64,000 nt of DNA. It comes from Nitratireductor soli (GTDB taxonomy: Bacteria; Pseudomonadota; Alphaproteobacteria; Rhizobiales; Rhizobiaceae). The stretch covers positions 124,001 to 188,000 of the forward strand of contig NZ_LFVY01000005.1 in NCBI RefSeq assembly GCF_001050155.1, in the 5' to 3' direction. The position numbers and the translations under genes were made by a program. The notes beneath the pieces are model-generated. The model did no database searches. It was not told the origin of the DNA and saw nothing but the letters and a program-made list of their open reading frames with translations. Below, piece after piece: positions 5,306-15,560 of the stretch (within the stretch, counting starts at the first letter, position 1; each line of letters starts with the position of its first letter).

Positions 5306-6799
5306 CTAAGACGAAGACAGCGTGCGGCGCACCGCGTCGCGCCAGCCTTTCAGCCGCTCTTTGCGCTCTGCTTCACCCATTTGCGGCGTGAACTGCCGGT
5401 CGAGCGCCCAGGCCCTGGCGAATGTCGCCGCATCGGGCCACACACCTGCCCGCGATCCGGCCAGCCACGCGGCGCCCAGCGCCGTGGTTTCCAGCATGGT
5501 CGGCCGGTCGACGGGCGCGTCGAGCATGTCGGCCACGCATTGCATCGTCCAGTCGCTCGCCACCATGCCGCCATCGACACGCAGAACTGTACTGCCGGCG
5601 CCGCCCTTCCAATCCTTGCGCATGGCGTCGAGCAGGTCGCGCGTCTGGTAGGCAACGGATTCCAAGGTCGCGCGGGCAAACTCCGCCGGGCCGGTGTTGC
5701 GCGTCAGGCCGAAGATCGCGCCGCGCGCCTCGGCGTCCCAATAGGGCGCGCCCAGGCCGACAAAGGCCGGCACGAGATAGACATGCTGCGTCGGATCGGC
5801 CTTCGCGGCAAGCGCCCCGGAATCGGCCGCCCTGCCGATCACCTTCAGCCCGTCGCGCAGCCATTGCACGGCCGCGCCCGCGACGAAAATCGACCCTTCC
5901 AGCGCATAGGTGGTCTTGCCGCCGAGCCGATAGGCGATGGTGGTGAGCAGCCGGTTCTTCGAGCGCACCAGCGTCTCGCCGGTGTTGAGCACGGCGAAGC
6001 AGCCTGTTCCGTAAGTGGCCTTCAGCATGCCCGGTTCGAAACAGGCCTGGCCGATGACCGCCGCCTGCTGGTCGCCGGCAACGCCGAGAATGGGGATTTC
6101 GGCGCCGAACAGTTTCTTGTCGGTGACGCCGAAATCGTCTGCGCAGTCCTTCACCTGCGGCAGCATCACCCTCGGAATGTCGAGGATTTTCAGCAGCGTG
6201 TCGTCCCAGGCATTGGTCTTGATGTTGTAAAGCAGCGTGCGCGAGGCGTTGGTGGCGTCGGTGACGTGCGAGCGGCCGCCGGTCAGGCGCCAGATGAGAA
6301 AGCTGTCGATGGTGCCGGCCATCAGCTCGCCGTTTTCGGCGCGCTGGCGCGCGCCCTTCACGCGTTCGAGGATCCAGGCAAGCTTGGTGCCGGAGAAATA
6401 GGGATCGAGCAACAGGCCGGTCCTGGCGGTGAAGGTCTTTTCCAGACCCTGCTTCTTGAGCTTTTCGCACAGCGGCGCGGTGCGGCGATCCTGCCAGACG
6501 ATGGCGTTGTGGATCGGGCGGCCTGTATCGCGCTCCCAGACGACCACGGTCTCGCGCTGGTTGGTGATGCCGATCGCGGCGATGTCGCCGCCCGTGAGCT
6601 TCGCCTTGCGCAGCGCGGCGCGGACGGTGGCGACGACGCTCTTCCAGATGTCTTCCGGATCATGTTCGACCCAGCCGGAATCGGGATAATGCTGCGGAAA
6701 CTCCTTCTGCCCGGTGGCGATGGCCCGCATCTTGCCGTCGAAGACGATCGCCCGGCTCGATGTCGTGCCCTGGTCGATCGCCAATATGTGGCGGTTCAT
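5306..6799 (-). CDS. glpK: Glycerol kinase
   Basis: Phosphorylates cytoplasmic glycerol to sn-glycerol-3-phosphate with ATP. This traps glycerol brought in by the GlpSTPQ transporter encoded upstream. At 497 aa it has standard FGGY-kinase length. Motifs visible are [15 protein letters not shown] (phosphate-binding, residues 6-20), [37 protein letters not shown] and, in the C-terminal half, [21 protein letters not shown]. It is the last gene of the glycerol block, separated from glpV by 264 bp that hold palindromic repeats and a strong hairpin. It may therefore be expressed at a different level from the transporter. Confidence 0.98.
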
Positions 6800-7063: not shown

Positions 7064-8794
<1,731 letters not shown>

Positions 8795-8931
8795 TTCAAA
8801 CTCCTCCTCCTGTTTCCGCATGCTTTACGCGAATGCGGTTGTGGCGATTTTCCCCTGCCGTTCCTGATGCAGAGACAAGCGCCTGTTTCGCCGGAACGCC
8901 GTTTGGCATTCCCGCGTTTCACTGCCGATGG

Positions 8932-9216
8932 CTAAACCCAGCGGAAAACCGCAAAGGCATAAGCCAGCGACAAGACCGTGCCGCCCCAAAGCGACAAGTC
9001 CGTAAACCCAAGCCATCCGAGATGGATGAACGCGCTGCCCAGAAGCGAGATGAACAGCCGGTCGCCGCGCGTCGTGTCGAGACCGAGGATGCCGTGGCGC
9101 GGACCGCCGCCGGGGCTCGCCCATTCCCAGACCGTCATGGCGCAGAGCAGCGCCAGGATGACGGCGAAGAAGGTCGCCGTCTGCCAGGTCCAGGCCATCC
9201 AGGTGAGATCAAGCAT
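8932..9216 (-). CDS. glpU: Small membrane protein of the glycerol ABC transporter operon (DUF2160)
   Basis: A 94-aa integral membrane protein with two or three hydrophobic segments (about residues 11-31, 53-70 and 76-92). It matches the DUF2160 family found only beside glycerol/polyol ABC transporters of this type. Its biochemical role is not known; a role in transporter assembly or stability is an inference from strict synteny. It starts 26 bp after glpQ and is followed by 137 bp before glpV. The ATG at 9216 is preceded by GGGAGGAACC, a good ribosome-binding site. Confidence 0.85.
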   Translation of the reverse strand: MLDLTWMAWTWQTATFFAVILALLCAMTVWEWASPGGGPRHGILGLDTTRGDRLFISLLGSAFIHLGWLGFTDLSLWGGTVLSLAYAFAVFRWV

Positions 9217-9242: not shown

Positions 9243-10043
9243 CTACACCCGCCCGAGGGCGAAGCCCTTGGCGATGTAGTTGCGGACGAAATAGATGACG
9301 ATGGCGCCTGGAATGATGGTCAGCACGCCGGCGGCGGCCAGCAGGCCAAGCTCGTATCCGGACGTGCTGGCCGTGCGCGTCATGACGGCGGCGATGGGCT
9401 TGGCGGCGACCGAGGTCAGCGTCTTGGCCAGAAGCAGCTCCACCCATGAGAACATGAAGCAGAAGAAGGCCGTGACACCGATGCCCGAGGCGATCAGCGG
9501 CATGAAGATCTTGACGAAGAAGCGCGGGAACGAATAGCCGTCGATATAGGCCGTCTCGTCGATCTCCTTCGGCACGCCCGACATGAAGCCTTCGAGGATC
9601 CAGACGGCCAGCGGAATGTTGAACAGGCAATGGGCCAGCGCCACGGCCCAGGGCGTGTCGAACAGGCCGATCGCCGAATAGAGTTGGTAGAAGGGCAAGG
9701 CAAAAACCGCCGGCGGCGCCATGCGGTTGGTCAGGAGCCAGAAGAACAGATGCTTGTCGCCAAGGAAGCGGTAGCGCGAGAAGGCATAGGCCGCCGGCAG
9801 AGCGAATGAAACGGAAATCACCGTGTTTATAAGCACATAGCTGATCGAGCTGATGTATCCATTATACCAGACCGGATTGGTCAGGATCTCCACATAACTG
9901 GCCGTGGTGAAATTCTTCGGCCACGGGCTGAAGCCGCCGAGGATCTCGTTGGTGGTCTTGAACGACATGTTGACCAGCCAGTAGATCGGCAGGAGCAGGA
10001 AGGTGATGTAGAGCGTCGGCACGAGCCACTTCGTCAGTCTCAT
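9243..10043 (-). CDS. glpQ: Glycerol ABC transporter permease (second subunit)
   Basis: Inner-membrane permease of 266 aa of the MalG/UgpE type. It forms half of the translocation pore with GlpP. About six membrane segments are present. The cytoplasmic EAA loop that contacts the ATPase appears as KEIDETAYIDGYSFPRFFVKI. The start ATG overlaps the stop codon of glpP by the ATGA tetranucleotide (10040-10043), indicating translational coupling. The sequence ends VRNYIAKGFALGRV, typical of MalG-type permeases. Confidence 0.94.
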   Translation of the reverse strand: MRLTKWLVPTLYITFLLLPIYWLVNMSFKTTNEILGGFSPWPKNFTTASYVEILTNPVWYNGYISSISYVLINTVISVSFALPAAYAFSRYRFLGDKHLFFWLLTNRMAPPAVFALPFYQLYSAIGLFDTPWAVALAHCLFNIPLAVWILEGFMSGVPKEIDETAYIDGYSFPRFFVKIFMPLIASGIGVTAFFCFMFSWVELLLAKTLTSVAAKPIAAVMTRTASTSGYELGLLAAAGVLTIIPGAIVIYFVRNYIAKGFALGRV

Positions 10044-10903
10044 TGCTCGTCTCCCCGCATCATCAGCGTGTAGAAGATCCAGCTCACCAGCAGCGTTATC
10101 AGGAAGTAGATGATGCTCATGGCGGCGGCGATGCCGAGGTTGAACTCGCCGAGCGCGGCCTTGACCAGATCGATCGACAGGAAGGTGGTGGCGTTGCCCG
10201 GGCCGCCGCCGGTGAGCACGAACGGCTCGGTGTAGATCATGAAGGAATCCATGAAGCGCAGGAGCACGGCGATGGTCAGCACGCGGTTCATCTTCGGCAG
10301 CTGGATGAAGCGGAAGACGGACCAACGCGAGGCGCCGTCGATCTTGGCCGCCTGATAATAGGCTTCGGGGATCGAGCGCAGGCCGGCATAGGCGAGCAGC
10401 ACCACCAGCGAGGTCCAGTGCCAGACATCCATCAGGACGACGGTGAACCAGGCTGCGAAGGGCTGGCGGGTGAAATTATACGGAATGCCGAGCTTGTTCA
10501 GGCCGTAGCCGAGCAGGCCGATATCGGGCAGCGCCATGATGTTCCACATAGCGCCGACGACGTTCCACGGGATCAGCAGCGGCAGCGCCATCAGCACCAG
10601 GCAGACGGACACCCAGGGGCCGGAGCGCGGCATGGTCAGGGCGATCGCGACGCCGAGCGGCACCTCGATCGCCAGGATGATGAAGGTGAACATGAACTGG
10701 CGCAGCAAAGACGCATGGAAGCGCGGCGAGGCCAGCACGTCCTGGTACCATTTCGTGCCCTCGAAGAAGAACAGATTGTTGCCGAAGGTTTCCTGCACCG
10801 AGTAGTTGACCACCGTCATCAGCGGAATGATGGCGTTGAAGGCCACCAGCAGCAGCACCGGCAGGACGAGGAACCAGGCGCGGTTGTTCCAGGTCTTGGT
10901 CAT
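10040..10903 (-). CDS. glpP: Glycerol ABC transporter permease (first subunit)
   Basis: Inner-membrane permease of 287 aa of the MalF/UgpA type, partner of GlpQ. It starts MTKTWNNRAWFLVLPVLLLVAF with a first membrane helix at residues 10-30. The EAA coupling loop reads IPEAYYQAAKIDGASRWSVFRFI. A run of proteins of this size (6 TM) between ATPases and a binding protein is diagnostic of a CUT1-like importer. Both ends are coupled by ATGA overlaps, to glpT upstream (10900-10903) and glpQ downstream. Confidence 0.94.
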   Translation of the reverse strand: MTKTWNNRAWFLVLPVLLLVAFNAIIPLMTVVNYSVQETFGNNLFFFEGTKWYQDVLASPRFHASLLRQFMFTFIILAIEVPLGVAIALTMPRSGPWVSVCLVLMALPLLIPWNVVGAMWNIMALPDIGLLGYGLNKLGIPYNFTRQPFAAWFTVVLMDVWHWTSLVVLLAYAGLRSIPEAYYQAAKIDGASRWSVFRFIQLPKMNRVLTIAVLLRFMDSFMIYTEPFVLTGGGPGNATTFLSIDLVKAALGEFNLGIAAAMSIIYFLITLLVSWIFYTLMMRGDEQ

Positions 10904-11991
10904 GCGCCCGCCCCCCTGCCCGGCTGAGCCAGATCGACCCGCCAGGAATTGGCGTAAAGGTTGATGCCGGCAGGATCGAACGTCACATGCGGCTCTGCCG
11001 GCACGGTCATGTCCTCGGGCATGACGGCGGCGATTATCCGTCCGTCGAGCGCCGCGCGGACGATCTTGCGCCGGCCCGTATCCTCGACGCGGTCGATGCG
11101 GACCGGAATGCCCTCGGCGCCGATGCGGACATATTCGGGCCGCACGCCGAGTTCGGTGCGGGCCGCGCCGTCGAGCGCGGCAATGCCCGGCAGTGCGACG
11201 CGATGCGCGCCGATGTGAGCGGCGGCGCCCTCGACCCGAACCGGAATGACATTCATGCCGGGCGAGCCGATGAAATAGCCGACGAAAGTGTGGTTCGGCC
11301 GCTCGAACAATTCCTCGGGCGTGCCGATCTGGACGATCTCGCCCTCGTTCATCACCACCACCTGGTCGGCGAAGGTCAGGGCCTCGGTCTGGTCGTGCGT
11401 CACATAGACCATGGTGAAGGCGAAGCGGCGGTGTAGTTCCTTCAATTGCGAGCGCAGCACCCATTTCATATGCGGGTCGATCACCGTCAGCGGCTCGTCG
11501 AACAGGATGGCGCTGACATCGGAGCGCACCAGGCCGCGGCCAAGGGCGATCTTCTGCTTGTCGTCGGCGGTCAGGCCCCTGGCCTTCTGCCCGGCGCGGT
11601 CGGCCAGGCCGATCATCTCCAGGATCTCGTTCACCCGGCGCTCGATCTCGCCGGCGGCAACGCCGCGATTGCGCAGGGGAAAGGCCAGATTGTCGCGGAC
11701 GCTCATCGTGTCGTAGACCACCGGAAACTGGAACACCTGGGCGATGTTGCGCTCTTCCGTCGACAGGCCCGTGACATCGCGCCCGTCGAACAGGATTTCG
11801 CCTTCGGTCGGCCGCAACAGACCCGACATGATGTTGAGCAGCGTGGTCTTGCCGCAGCCCGACGGCCCGAGCAGCGCATAGGCGCCGCCATCGTCGAATG
11901 TGTGATGAACCCGCTTCAGGGCGAAATCATCGTCGCCCTTGGGCGCTGCCATGTAGGCGTGGCGGATGTTGTTGAGGTCGATGCGCGCCAT
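10900..11991 (-). CDS. glpT: Glycerol ABC transporter ATPase with degenerate signature motif
   Basis: ATP-binding subunit, 363 aa, one of two ATPases for the GlpPQ permease. It has a normal Walker A GPSGCGKT (residues 42-49), Walker B AILFDEP (161-167) and switch histidine H199 in YVTHDQ. The ABC signature expected as LSGGQ is LTADD (140-144), so the C-motif is lost. The D-loop (LTVID) is also atypical. The C-terminal third is a MalK-like regulatory/OB domain. It is complementary to GlpS, which keeps the signature but has changed Walker A and H-loop. It is coupled to glpP by ATGA and separated from glpS by 9 bp. The name follows the rhizobial glycerol operon and is not the GlpT antiporter of E. 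coli. Confidence 0.92.
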   Translation of the reverse strand: MARIDLNNIRHAYMAAPKGDDDFALKRVHHTFDDGGAYALLGPSGCGKTTLLNIMSGLLRPTEGEILFDGRDVTGLSTEERNIAQVFQFPVVYDTMSVRDNLAFPLRNRGVAAGEIERRVNEILEMIGLADRAGQKARGLTADDKQKIALGRGLVRSDVSAILFDEPLTVIDPHMKWVLRSQLKELHRRFAFTMVYVTHDQTEALTFADQVVVMNEGEIVQIGTPEELFERPNHTFVGYFIGSPGMNVIPVRVEGAAAHIGAHRVALPGIAALDGAARTELGVRPEYVRIGAEGIPVRIDRVEDTGRRKIVRAALDGRIIAAVMPEDMTVPAEPHVTFDPAGINLYANSWRVDLAQPGRGAGA

Positions 11992-12000
11992 CCGCTCCCC

Positions 12001-13083
12001 CTATGCCGCCAAAGCCGCGGCGGTGGAAATGCGCCGGCCGCTTGTGTCGAAGACGAGCATGTGGCGCGTGTCGATGAAGGCGCGCACGCTTTCCCCGACA
12101 TCGAGCCGGTGGATGCCCTCCTCGAGCATGACCCAGCGCCGGCCGGCGAAATCCAGATGGACAAAACTCTCGGAGCCGGTGATCTCGGTCACCGAGACGC
12201 GCGCCTCGACGGCAACGGCGTCTGAGGCGCGCGGCTGAAAAGAAAGATGGTGTGGCTGAAAGCCGAGCGTGTACGCGCCGTCGGCTATGCCGCTCAAGCG
12301 AGCCGGCACCTGGAGGTTCAGCCCACCATCAAGCTGGAAATTCGATCCCCTCTTGTCGACCGCAACAATGTTCAGGGGCGGATCGGCGAAGGTTTGCGCC
12401 GTGATGAGGTCGGCGGGTTCGCGGAACAATTCGATGGTCGGACCGAACTGCGTCACACGACCCTCGCTGAGCGCTGCCGTATGACCGCCCAGAAGCAGGG
12501 CCTCGCTGGGCTCGGTCGTCGCATAGACGAAGATGGCACCGGAGGCGGCGAAGATTCTCGGCAGTTCGGCGCGCAGTTCCTCGCGCAGCTTGTAGTCGAG
12601 ATTGGCGAGCGGCTCGTCAAGCAGGACAAGGCGGGCCTCCTTGACCATGGCGCGTGCCAGGGCCGTGCGCTGCTGCTGGCCGCCCGACAGTTCCAGCGGC
12701 GTGCGGCGCAGATGCGGCGTCAGATGCAGCAGATCGGCGGCATGCGTTACCCGCTCCTCGATCACCGCCTTGGCGACGCCAGCCACGCGCAGCGGCGAGG
12801 CGATGTTTTCATACACGGTCATGGCCGGGTAGTTGATGAATTGCTGGTAGACCATGGCGACGCTGCGCTTCTGCACCGGCACGCCGGTGACATCCTGGCC
12901 CTCCATCCAGATGCTGCCTTCCGTCGGCCGGTCGAGCCCGGCCATCAGCCGCATCAGGCTGGTCTTGCCGGCCAGCGTCGGGCCGAGCAGCACGTTCAAA
13001 GAGCCTGGCGCGAAGGTCAGCGACACATGGCTGATATGCGGCTGGCCGGATGTGGTCTTCGACACATCACGCAGTTCCAGCAT
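12001..13083 (-). CDS. glpS: Glycerol ABC transporter ATPase with intact signature but altered Walker A and H-loop
   Basis: ATP-binding subunit, 360 aa, predicted to form a heterodimer with GlpT. Walker A is GPTLAGKT (34-41). It keeps the minimal G-x4-GKT but lacks the usual inner GxGK glycine pattern. The Q-loop is in VYQQF (79-83), the signature LSGGQ (132-136) is intact, and Walker B is LVLLDEP (152-158). The switch histidine position is Thr190 in YATTEP instead of THD. The start ATG at 13083 lies inside the 3' end of glpD (17-bp overlap), implying coupled translation. An upstream in-frame ATG (13119) would deepen the overlap. The C-terminal domain is MalK-like. Confidence 0.92.
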   Translation of the reverse strand: MLELRDVSKTTSGQPHISHVSLTFAPGSLNVLLGPTLAGKTSLMRLMAGLDRPTEGSIWMEGQDVTGVPVQKRSVAMVYQQFINYPAMTVYENIASPLRVAGVAKAVIEERVTHAADLLHLTPHLRRTPLELSGGQQQRTALARAMVKEARLVLLDEPLANLDYKLREELRAELPRIFAASGAIFVYATTEPSEALLLGGHTAALSEGRVTQFGPTIELFREPADLITAQTFADPPLNIVAVDKRGSNFQLDGGLNLQVPARLSGIADGAYTLGFQPHHLSFQPRASDAVAVEARVSVTEITGSESFVHLDFAGRRWVMLEEGIHRLDVGESVRAFIDTRHMLVFDTSGRRISTAAALAA

Positions 13084-14704
13084 GGCGTCCCCCTCCCTCG
13101 TGGCCGATCCGTGCCGCATCCCGGCTCGCGCTGACCAGGCCGCGCATGAAGGCGTCGACCACGGCCGCTTCCTCCACCGTCATGTGCAGGCCGCGCTTGG
13201 TGCGCCGCCACAGGACGTCCTCGCCGGTCACCGCCCATTCCTCGCGGGCGAGATAATGCAGTTCCGCCTCGTAGAGATCGGAGCCGAAATGGCGGCCAAG
13301 ATCGGCCCGGCTCTTCGCCCCGCCGAGCAGCCGGCGCGCCTTGGTGCCGTAAAGCCGCACCAGGCGCCGGGCGTGGGCCGCTTCGAGGAACGGATGGTCG
13401 CGCTGCAACGCATCGACTTGGGCTGCGTATCCATCGGCCGGGAAGTCGCCGCCCGGCAGCGTCGCCGCGCCGGTCCATGGCGCGCCGCCGGCGCCCAGCG
13501 TATCGCCGATCTTGTCGAGCGCGGCCTCGGCCAGCTTGCGGTAGGTGGTGATCTTGCCGCCGAAGACATGCAGCATCGGCGCGCCGTCGCCGGTCGTCTC
13601 CGTCTTCAGGACATAGTCGCGGGTTGCTTCCTGCGCCTTGGACGCACCGTCGTCGAACAGTGGGCGGACGCCGGAATAGGTCCAGACGATGTCGTCGCTT
13701 GTGACCGGCCGGGTAAAATATTCGCTGGCGGCGGCACAGAGATAATCGATCTCCTCGCCGCTGATGGCCACGTCCTTCGGGTCGCCGTCATAATCCTGGT
13801 CGGTGGTGCCGATCAGGGTGAAATCCTCCTCATAGGGGATGGCGAAGATGATGCGGCCATCGGCATTCTGGAAGAAATAGGCGCGCGGATCGTCGGATAT
13901 GCGCCGGGTGACGATGTGGCTGCCCTTGACCAGGCGCACATTGTCGACGTCGTTCTGGCCGAGCACACCGGCGATCACATGATCGACCCAGGGGCCGGCC
14001 GCATTGACCAGGTAGCGGGCCTGCACCGTCTCGACGGCGCCCGACGTCAGGTCCTGCATGCGGATGGTCCAGATGCCGTCCGCGCTCGATGCCGACACGA
14101 CTTTCGTGCGCGTGCGCAGATCGGCGCCCCGGTCGGCGGCGTCACGGGCGTTGAGGATGACGAAGCGCGCGTCGTTGACCCAGCAGTCGGAATATTCGAA
14201 GGCGCGCCGATAGGCATTCTTCAGCGGTTTGCCGGCGGGGTCGCTGCGCATGTCGAGCGTGCGTGTCTTGGGCAGCAGCCGGCGGCCGCCGATGTGATCG
14301 TAGAGAAACAGGCCGAGCCGGATCAGCCAGGCCGGCCGCAGCCCCTTGTGCAGGGGCAGGACGAAACGCATCGGCCAGATGATGTGCGGCGCGTTGTGCC
14401 ACAGCACCTCGCGCTCCATCAGCGCTTCGCGCACCAGGCGGAACTCGTAATGCTCGAGGTAGCGCAGGCCGCCATGGATCAGTTTTGTCGAACCGGAGGA
14501 GGTGCCGCTGGCCAGATCGTTCATTTCGGCCAGGCAGACCGAATAGCCGCGCCCGACCGCGTCGCGGGCGATGCCGCACCCGTTGATGCCGCCGCCGATG
14601 ACGAACACATCAAGGATTTCAGAAGCGCGAACGGCTGAAGCCGGCAATCGATCCTCCCTCGTCTCCGGCCCAGTTCTTGGCCTAGTTCTCGGCTCAGTCG
14701 GCAT
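13067..14704 (-). CDS. glpD: Glycerol-3-phosphate dehydrogenase, aerobic FAD-dependent
   Basis: Oxidises sn-glycerol-3-phosphate to dihydroxyacetone phosphate at the inner face of the membrane, passing electrons to ubiquinone. At 545 aa it is slightly longer than usual because of about 28 extra N-terminal residues before the FAD motif DVFVIGGGINGCGIARDAVGRG. No in-frame ATG lies nearer the fold, so the ATG at 14704 is kept. Further family motifs are SSGSTKLIHGGLRYLEHYEF and YLVNAAGPWVD. It is the first gene of the transport operon, behind its own promoter (14741-14768), and the product feeds glycerol carbon into glycolysis. Confidence 0.96.
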   Translation of the reverse strand: MPTEPRTRPRTGPETREDRLPASAVRASEILDVFVIGGGINGCGIARDAVGRGYSVCLAEMNDLASGTSSGSTKLIHGGLRYLEHYEFRLVREALMEREVLWHNAPHIIWPMRFVLPLHKGLRPAWLIRLGLFLYDHIGGRRLLPKTRTLDMRSDPAGKPLKNAYRRAFEYSDCWVNDARFVILNARDAADRGADLRTRTKVVSASSADGIWTIRMQDLTSGAVETVQARYLVNAAGPWVDHVIAGVLGQNDVDNVRLVKGSHIVTRRISDDPRAYFFQNADGRIIFAIPYEEDFTLIGTTDQDYDGDPKDVAISGEEIDYLCAAASEYFTRPVTSDDIVWTYSGVRPLFDDGASKAQEATRDYVLKTETTGDGAPMLHVFGGKITTYRKLAEAALDKIGDTLGAGGAPWTGAATLPGGDFPADGYAAQVDALQRDHPFLEAAHARRLVRLYGTKARRLLGGAKSRADLGRHFGSDLYEAELHYLAREEWAVTGEDVLWRRTKRGLHMTVEEAAVVDAFMRGLVSASRDAARIGHEGGGRHAGTA

Positions 14705-14786: not shown

Positions 14787-15560
14787 TTACCCCGCCGTCT
14801 CGATCAGCCGCACGCCGGCTTCCTCGCACAGGTCGCGCACGGCCCGCACGGGACAGGCATCGGTGATGAACGTGTCGACCTGCGAGATGTGGCCGATGCG
14901 CACCGGCGCGCCGCGGTCGAACTTGGTGGAATCGGACACCAGGATCACGTGGCGCGCATTGGCGATGATCGCCTGGGCCACCTTCACTTCGCGAAAATCG
15001 AAATCGTAGAGCGCACCGTCATGATCGATGGCGGAAACGCCGATCACCGCGTAATCGACCTTGAACTGGCGAATGAAATCAACCGCCGCCTCGCCGACAA
15101 TGCCGCCGTCCGAACCGCGCACCACGCCGCCCGCGATGATCACCTCCAACGAGGGATAGACGCGCATCCTGTTGGCGACATTGATGTTGTTGGTGATCAC
15201 CATCAGGCCTTCATGGTCGAGAAGCGCATCGCTGACGGCTTCCGTCGTCGTGCCGATGTTGACGAAGAGGGAGGCGCGGTCGGGGATCAATCGGGCGGCG
15301 GCGCGGCCGATCGCCTGCTTTTCGCCGGCGGCGATCTTGCGGCGCGCCTCGTATTCCATGTTCTCGATGCCCGACGGCAGCAATGCACCGCCATGGATGC
15401 GCGACAACAGGCGGCGGTCGCACAATTCGTTCAGGTCGCGGCGGATGGTCTGCGGCGTGACGTCGAAATGCACGGCGAGATCGTCGACCAGGACCCGCCC
15501 ATGCTCCTTGGCGAGCGACAGAATTTCGGCGTGGCGCGGCATCAGGAGAGGTGTGTTCAT
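14787..15560 (-). CDS. glpR: DeoR-family transcriptional repressor of glycerol genes
   Basis: A 257-aa DeoR/GlpR-type repressor. The N-terminal winged helix-turn-helix (about residues 8-60) contains DDLAVHFDVTPQTIRRDLNEL and the DeoR hallmark RIHGGAL. The C-terminal DeoRC sugar-phosphate sensor domain has FVNIGTTTEAVSDAL and GSDGGIVGEAAVDFIRQF. The family normally senses a phosphorylated intermediate; here glycerol-3-phosphate is likely by context. It is separated from glpD by 82 bp with a promoter. An inverted repeat with E. coli-type GlpR half-sites lies just upstream, suggesting autoregulation. Confidence 0.93.
   Translation of the reverse strand: MNTPLLMPRHAEILSLAKEHGRVLVDDLAVHFDVTPQTIRRDLNELCDRRLLSRIHGGALLPSGIENMEYEARRKIAAGEKQAIGRAAARLIPDRASLFVNIGTTTEAVSDALLDHEGLMVITNNINVANRMRVYPSLEVIIAGGVVRGSDGGIVGEAAVDFIRQFKVDYAVIGVSAIDHDGALYDFDFREVKVAQAIIANARHVILVSDSTKFDRGAPVRIGHISQVDTFITDACPVRAVRDLCEEAGVRLIETAG

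Follow-up and report, generated by a model that had tools for sequence, protein, structure and literature searches.

Complementary motif losses in GlpS and GlpT point to one consensus and one degenerate ATP site in a MalK-type importer of Nitratireductor soli

How many working ATP sites does a transporter have when each of its two ATPase subunits lacks a different catalytic motif? The question is raised by glpS and glpT, adjoining genes of a predicted glycerol importer, GlpSTPQUV, in a 64,000-nucleotide stretch of the Nitratireductor soli genome (GCF_001050155.1, contig NZ_LFVY01000005.1, positions 124,001 to 188,000; the whole stretch is hereafter called the window, and its coordinates are used throughout). 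In a dimer of ATP-binding cassette (ABC) nucleotide-binding domains (NBDs), each composite site is built from the Walker A, Walker B, A-, Q- and H-loop of one subunit and the signature of its partner (PMC7756269). An earlier note, made from the DNA sequence alone, had proposed that GlpS and GlpT pair head to tail to give one consensus and one degenerate site. Our analysis makes it likely that the two form an obligate heterodimer with one site of each kind in an importer of the MalK-type (type I) class. The two genes and their motifs, with counts from the ortholog rows described below, are as follows:

12001..13083, minus strand: glpS, MalK-type ABC ATPase subunit of 360 residues, with Pfam ABC_tran and TOBE_2
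13051..13053, minus strand: GlpS Thr11 at the A-loop position, aromatic residue lost (aromatic in 2/151 rows; Val in 138)
12961..12984, minus strand: GlpS Walker A, GPTLAGKT, residues 34-41 (GK[ST] in 151/151; canonical GxxGxGK[ST] in 36/151)
12676..12690, minus strand: GlpS signature LSGGQ, residues 132-136, intact and predicted to face the GlpT nucleotide site (LSGGQQQR in 151/151)
12613..12618, minus strand: GlpS Walker B Asp156-Glu157, intact (151/151)
12514..12516, minus strand: GlpS H-loop Thr190, where the switch His would stand (of 151 rows: Thr 99, Ser 51, Ala 1, no His)
10900..11991, minus strand: glpT, MalK-type ABC ATPase subunit of 363 residues, with Pfam ABC_tran and OB_MalK
11953..11955, minus strand: GlpT A-loop Tyr13, intact (129/130 rows, one gap)
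11845..11868, minus strand: GlpT Walker A, GPSGCGKT, residues 42-49, intact (canonical in 130/130)
11560..11574, minus strand: GlpT signature position, LTADD, residues 140-144, degenerate and predicted to face the GlpS nucleotide site (SGG in 0/130)
11494..11499, minus strand: GlpT Walker B Asp165-Glu166, intact (130/130)
11476..11487, minus strand: GlpT D-loop TVID, residues 169-172, non-canonical (130/130)
11395..11397, minus strand: GlpT switch His199, intact (130/130)

The motifs in both proteins agreed with those given in the earlier note. GlpT has LTADDKQK (140-147) at the signature, together with a normal Walker A, FDEP ending at residue 167 and YVTHDQ (196-201, containing His199); GlpS has an intact LSGGQQQR (132-139), LLDEP ending at residue 158, and YATTEP (187-192), with Thr190 at the place of the switch His. 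In HMMER alignments to solved MalK-type chains, LTADD of GlpT fell on LSGGQ and Thr190 of GlpS fell on the switch His, so the motif register is correct. Thr11 of GlpS stood opposite the A-loop Phe of 1g29 and 1v43. Two signs can be added to those of the note: the A-loop aromatic residue is lost in GlpS and kept in GlpT, and the D-loop of GlpT is invariably TVID.

When these motifs were placed on a head-to-tail dimer, the non-canonical residues clustered in one composite site, and the catalytic motifs of the other site were canonical. The D-loops were assigned to the sites from what is generally known of NBD dimers. Neither site of a GlpS homodimer would have a switch His, and neither site of a GlpT homodimer a signature, so a complete site is expected only in the GlpS-GlpT heterodimer. 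The proposal of asymmetric sites stands in that the losses of the GlpT signature and the GlpS switch His map to the same site; the GlpS Walker A, which the note had counted as a third defect, is not part of the asymmetry. GPTLAGKT departs from GxxGxGKT only at position 4 (Gly to Leu), and this position varies freely among orthologs (Leu in 97, Gly in 36, Gln in 9 and other residues in 9 of 151 rows). We therefore rejected the GlpS Walker A as a conserved defect.

Orthologs were gathered with GlpV, the substrate-binding protein of the operon, as bait, so the ATPase motifs played no part in their selection. A GlpV scan of named genomes supplied the best 80 loci of 589 relatives. Searches of whole genomes gave matches in 31 out of 40 relatives at an E-value of 1e-3, weak paralogues included, and in 25 out of 240 and 87 out of 398 genomes of the class and the phylum, respectively, at 1e-60; longer stretches were taken around 60 of the diverged GlpV matches. 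After removal of rows with fewer than 240 bits or fewer than 200 aligned query residues, 219 loci and the window yielded 151 distinct GlpS rows and 130 distinct GlpT rows. L081-L159, whose flanks are short at about 1.5 kb, contributed some GlpS rows and no full pair. Record titles of the best 80 loci named alpha- and gammaproteobacteria, Desulfobacterales, Desulfobulbaceae and SAR324. Mean pairwise identity, from 2000 sampled pairs, was 53% for GlpS (minimum 36%) and 59% for GlpT (minimum 44%).

Ortholog conservation, which the earlier note had named as a check on its proposal, was exceptionless for the signature and H-loop changes in all GlpS and GlpT rows. Neither signature glycine position held Gly in any GlpT row, residue 143 was Asp in 128 out of 130, and Lys145-Gln146 was present in all 130; Gln80 of the GlpS Q-loop was likewise invariant (151/151). 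All 128 distinct pairs (the window and 127 loci) combined a GlpS that has LSGGQ without the His and a GlpT that has the His without the signature. Under stricter criteria that also included the A-loops and Asp143, 125 of the 128 pairs still agreed, the other three being L007 (Phe at the GlpS A-loop), L200 (Ala at GlpT residue 143) and L217 (Glu at the same residue). The same GlpS and GlpT motifs were found in two plasmid operons, one from R. leguminosarum and the other from S. meliloti.

Paralogues from the same genome served as a control. Searching at E-values up to 1e-30 identified 31 distinct MalK-type paralogues, of which 29 had their loci read. In all 29, the signature contains SGG and the Walker A is a canonical GxxGxGK[ST]; 28 also have the H-loop His. 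The sole exception (L249, G000:C23:254774-255592) reads HVTGSE where the H-loop His motif would be and has an intact ISGGQ signature. The D-loops of the paralogues were mostly SNLD, SALD or GALD, as against TVID in GlpT. Either loss by itself is thus rare among the paralogues, and here both occur in adjoining genes. Because the same-genome paralogues are almost all canonical, the losses in GlpS and GlpT are not due to chance.

The two genes also travel together. We searched a sample of 200 genomes of the phylum with each ATPase (E-values of 1e-68 for GlpT and 1e-62 for GlpS, with ten candidates scored per genome). At these cut-offs, the same 35 genomes, the window's included, carried both glpS and glpT, and none carried one alone. 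Orthologs scored at least 374 bits for GlpT and at least 305 bits for GlpS, compared with at most 233 and 227 bits, respectively, for the next paralogue. At all 128 loci where both genes were readable, GlpS was the gene immediately upstream of GlpT and in the same orientation, with a gap of -11 to 280 bases.

Exceptions were sought in the 140 loci with long flanks (L001-L080 and L160-L219), 12 of which had no countable row for one or both ATPases. Seven of the twelve have a contig edge in or before GlpT: in L011, L023 and L046 the contig stops after the permease genes, just where GlpS and GlpT should follow, L078 and L018 begin within GlpT, and L022 and L073 stop within it. Another four, L160-L163, hold lone diverged GlpV-like genes (51-59% identical), within about 7 kb of which no further protein of the operon was found; no open reading frame with both Walker A and signature patterns was found in these four loci or in L011, L023, L046 and L078. 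The genomes of L160 and L161 hold a full operon besides. The remaining locus, L039, is considered below. Apparent fusions of GlpS with GlpT (L071) and of GlpT with GlpP (L006 and L033) were rejected, as a stop codon lies between the genes in each. Read-through of the stop codon affected 10 rows, and once the rows were cut at the stop, L006 and L071 no longer had unusual gaps.

In a tree of 21 GlpS, 21 GlpT and 29 paralogue sequences, whose bootstrap was not fully settled, GlpS and GlpT each formed one fully supported clade among canonical paralogues, on long stems (1.27 changes per column for the one that the midpoint root divides, 1.15 for the other). A sister relation between GlpS and GlpT was unsupported in this tree, and GlpT fell among canonical paralogues with weak support (84/64). 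Both losses appear to be older than the sampled diversity and to have never been reversed within the sample.

From these patterns we infer a mechanism in which GlpS and GlpT would be the non-interchangeable ATPase subunits of GlpSTPQUV, paired head to tail. Site 1, the consensus site, would consist of Tyr13, Walker A, the Q-loop, Glu166 and His199 of GlpT together with LSGGQ of GlpS, and would bind and hydrolyse ATP. Site 2, the degenerate site, would have on its GlpS side Walker A, the Q-loop and Glu157, with no A-loop aromatic residue and with Thr or Ser for the switch His, and on its GlpT side the LT-A-D-x-KQK signature and the TVID D-loop. Because GK[ST], Asp156 and Glu157 are invariant, site 2 is probably still able to bind nucleotide; it would hydrolyse slowly or not at all and would serve as an allosteric or holding site. 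A transport cycle would then cost a single ATP.

Several observations weigh against this proposal. The D-loop of GlpS, which should sit at the consensus site, is ANLD or VNLD and not the usual SNLD, a minor departure at an otherwise canonical site. His16 of GlpS, present in 124 out of 151 rows and otherwise mostly Tyr or Trp, might stand in for the lost A-loop aromatic residue. The degeneration of the GlpS Walker A is not conserved. The Walker B glutamate of GlpS is intact in all 151 rows, so hydrolysis at site 2 may still take place; in exporters, loss of this glutamate is termed a hallmark of a degenerate site (PMC7544095), and GlpS does not bear it. L039 has a GlpS, but the 1.1 kb left in the locus contain no GlpT. 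In the translations of that locus (9889-12259), GlpS is cut short after residue 342, and the rest is taken up by unrelated sequence that includes a CoA-transferase-like frame; it seems that either the operon is disrupted or the assembly was joined here. Finally, the C. metallidurans homologue of the transporter is dispensable for growth on glycerol (PMC7912956), so the substrate or the need of the transporter may differ between hosts.

Among the alternatives, the best placed is that site 2 holds no ATP or holds another ligand, with GlpS as a structural or regulatory half and GlpT alone driving the cycle. It differs from the heterodimer mechanism above only in nucleotide binding at site 2, and the chances of the two overlap. 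The A-loop aromatic residue, the switch His and the opposing signature are all lost at that one site, as such a role would allow, but the invariance of GK[ST], Gln80 and the Walker B Asp-Glu would be needless for a purely structural subunit, and we regard this alternative as unlikely. The invariant GK[ST] and Asp-Glu would also suit a transporter in which both composite sites hydrolyse and two ATP are spent, the GlpT signature and GlpS H-loop being working substitutes and Glu157 the lone catalytic base. Lys145-Gln146 is present in every GlpT row, so the replacement signature is under strong constraint, as this explanation would have it. Nevertheless, both signature glycines are absent throughout GlpT, with Asp nearly always at the second, a position that we equate with CFTR Gly551 (see below), and the switch His is lost from the same site as the signature; hydrolysis at both sites is quite unlikely.

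GlpS and GlpT might instead not be partners, each pairing with another ATPase of the cell. The genome offers at least 29 MalK-type paralogues for this, 28 of which are canonical at the signature glycines, the Walker A and the H-loop His, but the co-occurrence, adjacency and complementary defects of the two proteins make separate partnerships very improbable. Neutral decay, in which the changes serve no function and arose by drift once the ATPases had paired, would account for the drift at GlpS Walker A position 4 and is barely credible, given that the signature and H-loop never reverted in any row despite the low mean identities and that several replacement residues are themselves nearly fixed.

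The heterodimer model, with its consensus site and its degenerate one, can be taken a step further, to a single-stroke type I importer that spends one ATP per glycerol, is fixed in this state throughout the sampled proteobacterial operons by the Asp in the GlpT signature, and keeps the glutamate at its silent site for a non-hydrolytic role. We offer this more specific version tentatively and hold it to be somewhat doubtful. The position of GlpT Asp143 we take to be the equivalent of CFTR Gly551, and an Asp at Gly551 impairs ATP-driven gating of CFTR.

Assignment of both proteins to the MalK/CUT1 type rests on an ABC_tran domain, a C-terminal TOBE/OB regulatory domain and the MalK fold, with Pfam scores for TOBE_2 (GlpS) and OB_MalK (GlpT) that barely exceed their cut-offs. 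AlphaFold2 models, built as single-chain monomers, had a mean predicted local distance difference test score (pLDDT) of 89.4 for GlpS and 90.7 for GlpT. Both models matched MalK-type chains over their length, and such chains were the best Foldseek matches for each. UgpC (NCBIfam NF008653) was the top NCBIfam match, with 258.1 bits for GlpS and 278.2 bits for GlpT against a cut-off of 432, and none of the best 25 NCBIfam models per protein reached its cut-off for either.

The operon lies on the minus strand of the window in the order glpR-like, glpD, glpS, glpT, glpP, glpQ, glpU, glpV, glpK. Besides the two ATPase genes, it comprises:

14787..15560, minus strand: glpR-like regulator of the DeoR family (NCBIfam PRK10906 match, below its cut-off)
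13067..14704, minus strand: glpD, glycerol-3-phosphate dehydrogenase (NCBIfam PRK12266, above cut-off)
10040..10903, minus strand: glpP, permease of 287 residues (match in each of 19 compared loci)
9243..10043, minus strand: glpQ, permease of 266 residues (from locus comparison)
8932..9216, minus strand: glpU, small protein of 94 residues (S. meliloti counterpart annotated DUF2160)
7064..8821, minus strand: glpV, substrate-binding protein of 585 residues (Pfam SBP_bac_1; bait for the ortholog collection)
5306..6799, minus strand: glpK, glycerol kinase (NCBIfam GlpK, above cut-off)

Thus, glpSTPQUV lies between glpD and glpK with glpR upstream, the identity of glpR being a below-cut-off match, and glpR, glpD and glpK surround glpSTPQUV in the same way in the arrangement given in PMC7912956. 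The operon suggests glycerol as the substrate of the window transporter. The R. leguminosarum VF39 operon, GlpSTPQUV, has the same gene set and mediates glycerol uptake, according to PMC7912956 citing Ding et al. 2012. We found no report of ATPase asymmetry for the VF39 transporter in the literature searched, which did not include the original description.

Some further features of the locus were recorded. With its start at 13083, glpS shares 17 bases with the 3' end of glpD; another in-frame ATG is present upstream, at 13119. Two gene orders occur among the loci, glpD-S-T-P-Q-U-V (the window and L001) and V-S-T-P-Q-U, with GlpV first (L006 and similar loci). The GlpV of the window is 79-85% identical to those of four GlpV-first operons (L006, L013, L020 and L077), whose GlpS proteins are only 56-58% identical to the GlpS of the window; for four Rhizobium-type operons (L178, L181, L194 and L282), the values are 61-62% for GlpV and 65-71% for GlpS. 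GlpV, perhaps with the permeases, may have been swapped between operon types.

How does the GlpS-GlpT pair compare with known transporters? Both proteins resemble E. coli MalK2 of MalFGK2 in fold, C-terminal regulatory domain and motif layout. MalK, however, is a homodimer with two identical sites (PMC7756565), whereas GlpS and GlpT come from two genes and would have one intact site between them. The exporters TM287/288, TmrAB, ABCB2/B3, ABCG5/G8 and Pdr5 each combine one canonical and one degenerate composite site, as predicted for GlpST, and signature and H-loop changes occur among degenerate-site exporters (PMC7756269). In exporters, changes of the glutamate and the H-loop frequently coincide, and a fully canonicalised Pdr5 lost ATPase activity and transport (PMC7756269). 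By contrast with GlpST, a MalK-type importer in which GlpS keeps the Walker B glutamate invariantly, degenerate-site exporters usually lack that residue.

Among importers, RbsA and NupO of B. subtilis have one ATP site called degenerate from sequence (PMC11466899), as proposed here for GlpST; unlike GlpST, they belong to the type II class, carry two NBDs in one chain and have a second Walker A without the Lys. In E. coli DppDF, likewise an importer, the two NBD subunits differ and the structures show nucleotide bound asymmetrically (PMC12136057), but functional motifs are present in both of its subunits, and hydrolysis of two ATP is proposed (PMC12136057). The description of the asymmetry as unusual for an importer, made in the earlier note, is therefore too wide where type II importers are concerned and applies to the MalK-type (type I) class: no degenerate site in GlpST or another MalK-type importer was reported in the literature that we searched, which left out most subscription papers.

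Taking these results together, GlpST is a strong candidate for a MalK-type importer that is one-sited by nature. It would separate the loss of the signature and switch His from the loss of the catalytic glutamate, and it bears on how many ATP hydrolyses, one or two, a type I importer requires in each cycle. On that question, engineered half-mutant MalK and HisP dimers reportedly gave conflicting answers in the hands of Davidson and Sharma in 1997 and Nikaido and Ames in 1999. GlpST would be a natural version of these half-mutant dimers, with the halves in two genes and each site alterable separately. If the single-stroke version is true, the one-ATP design was perhaps selected: glycerol is cheap and membrane-permeable, and two ATP would not pay for its uptake.

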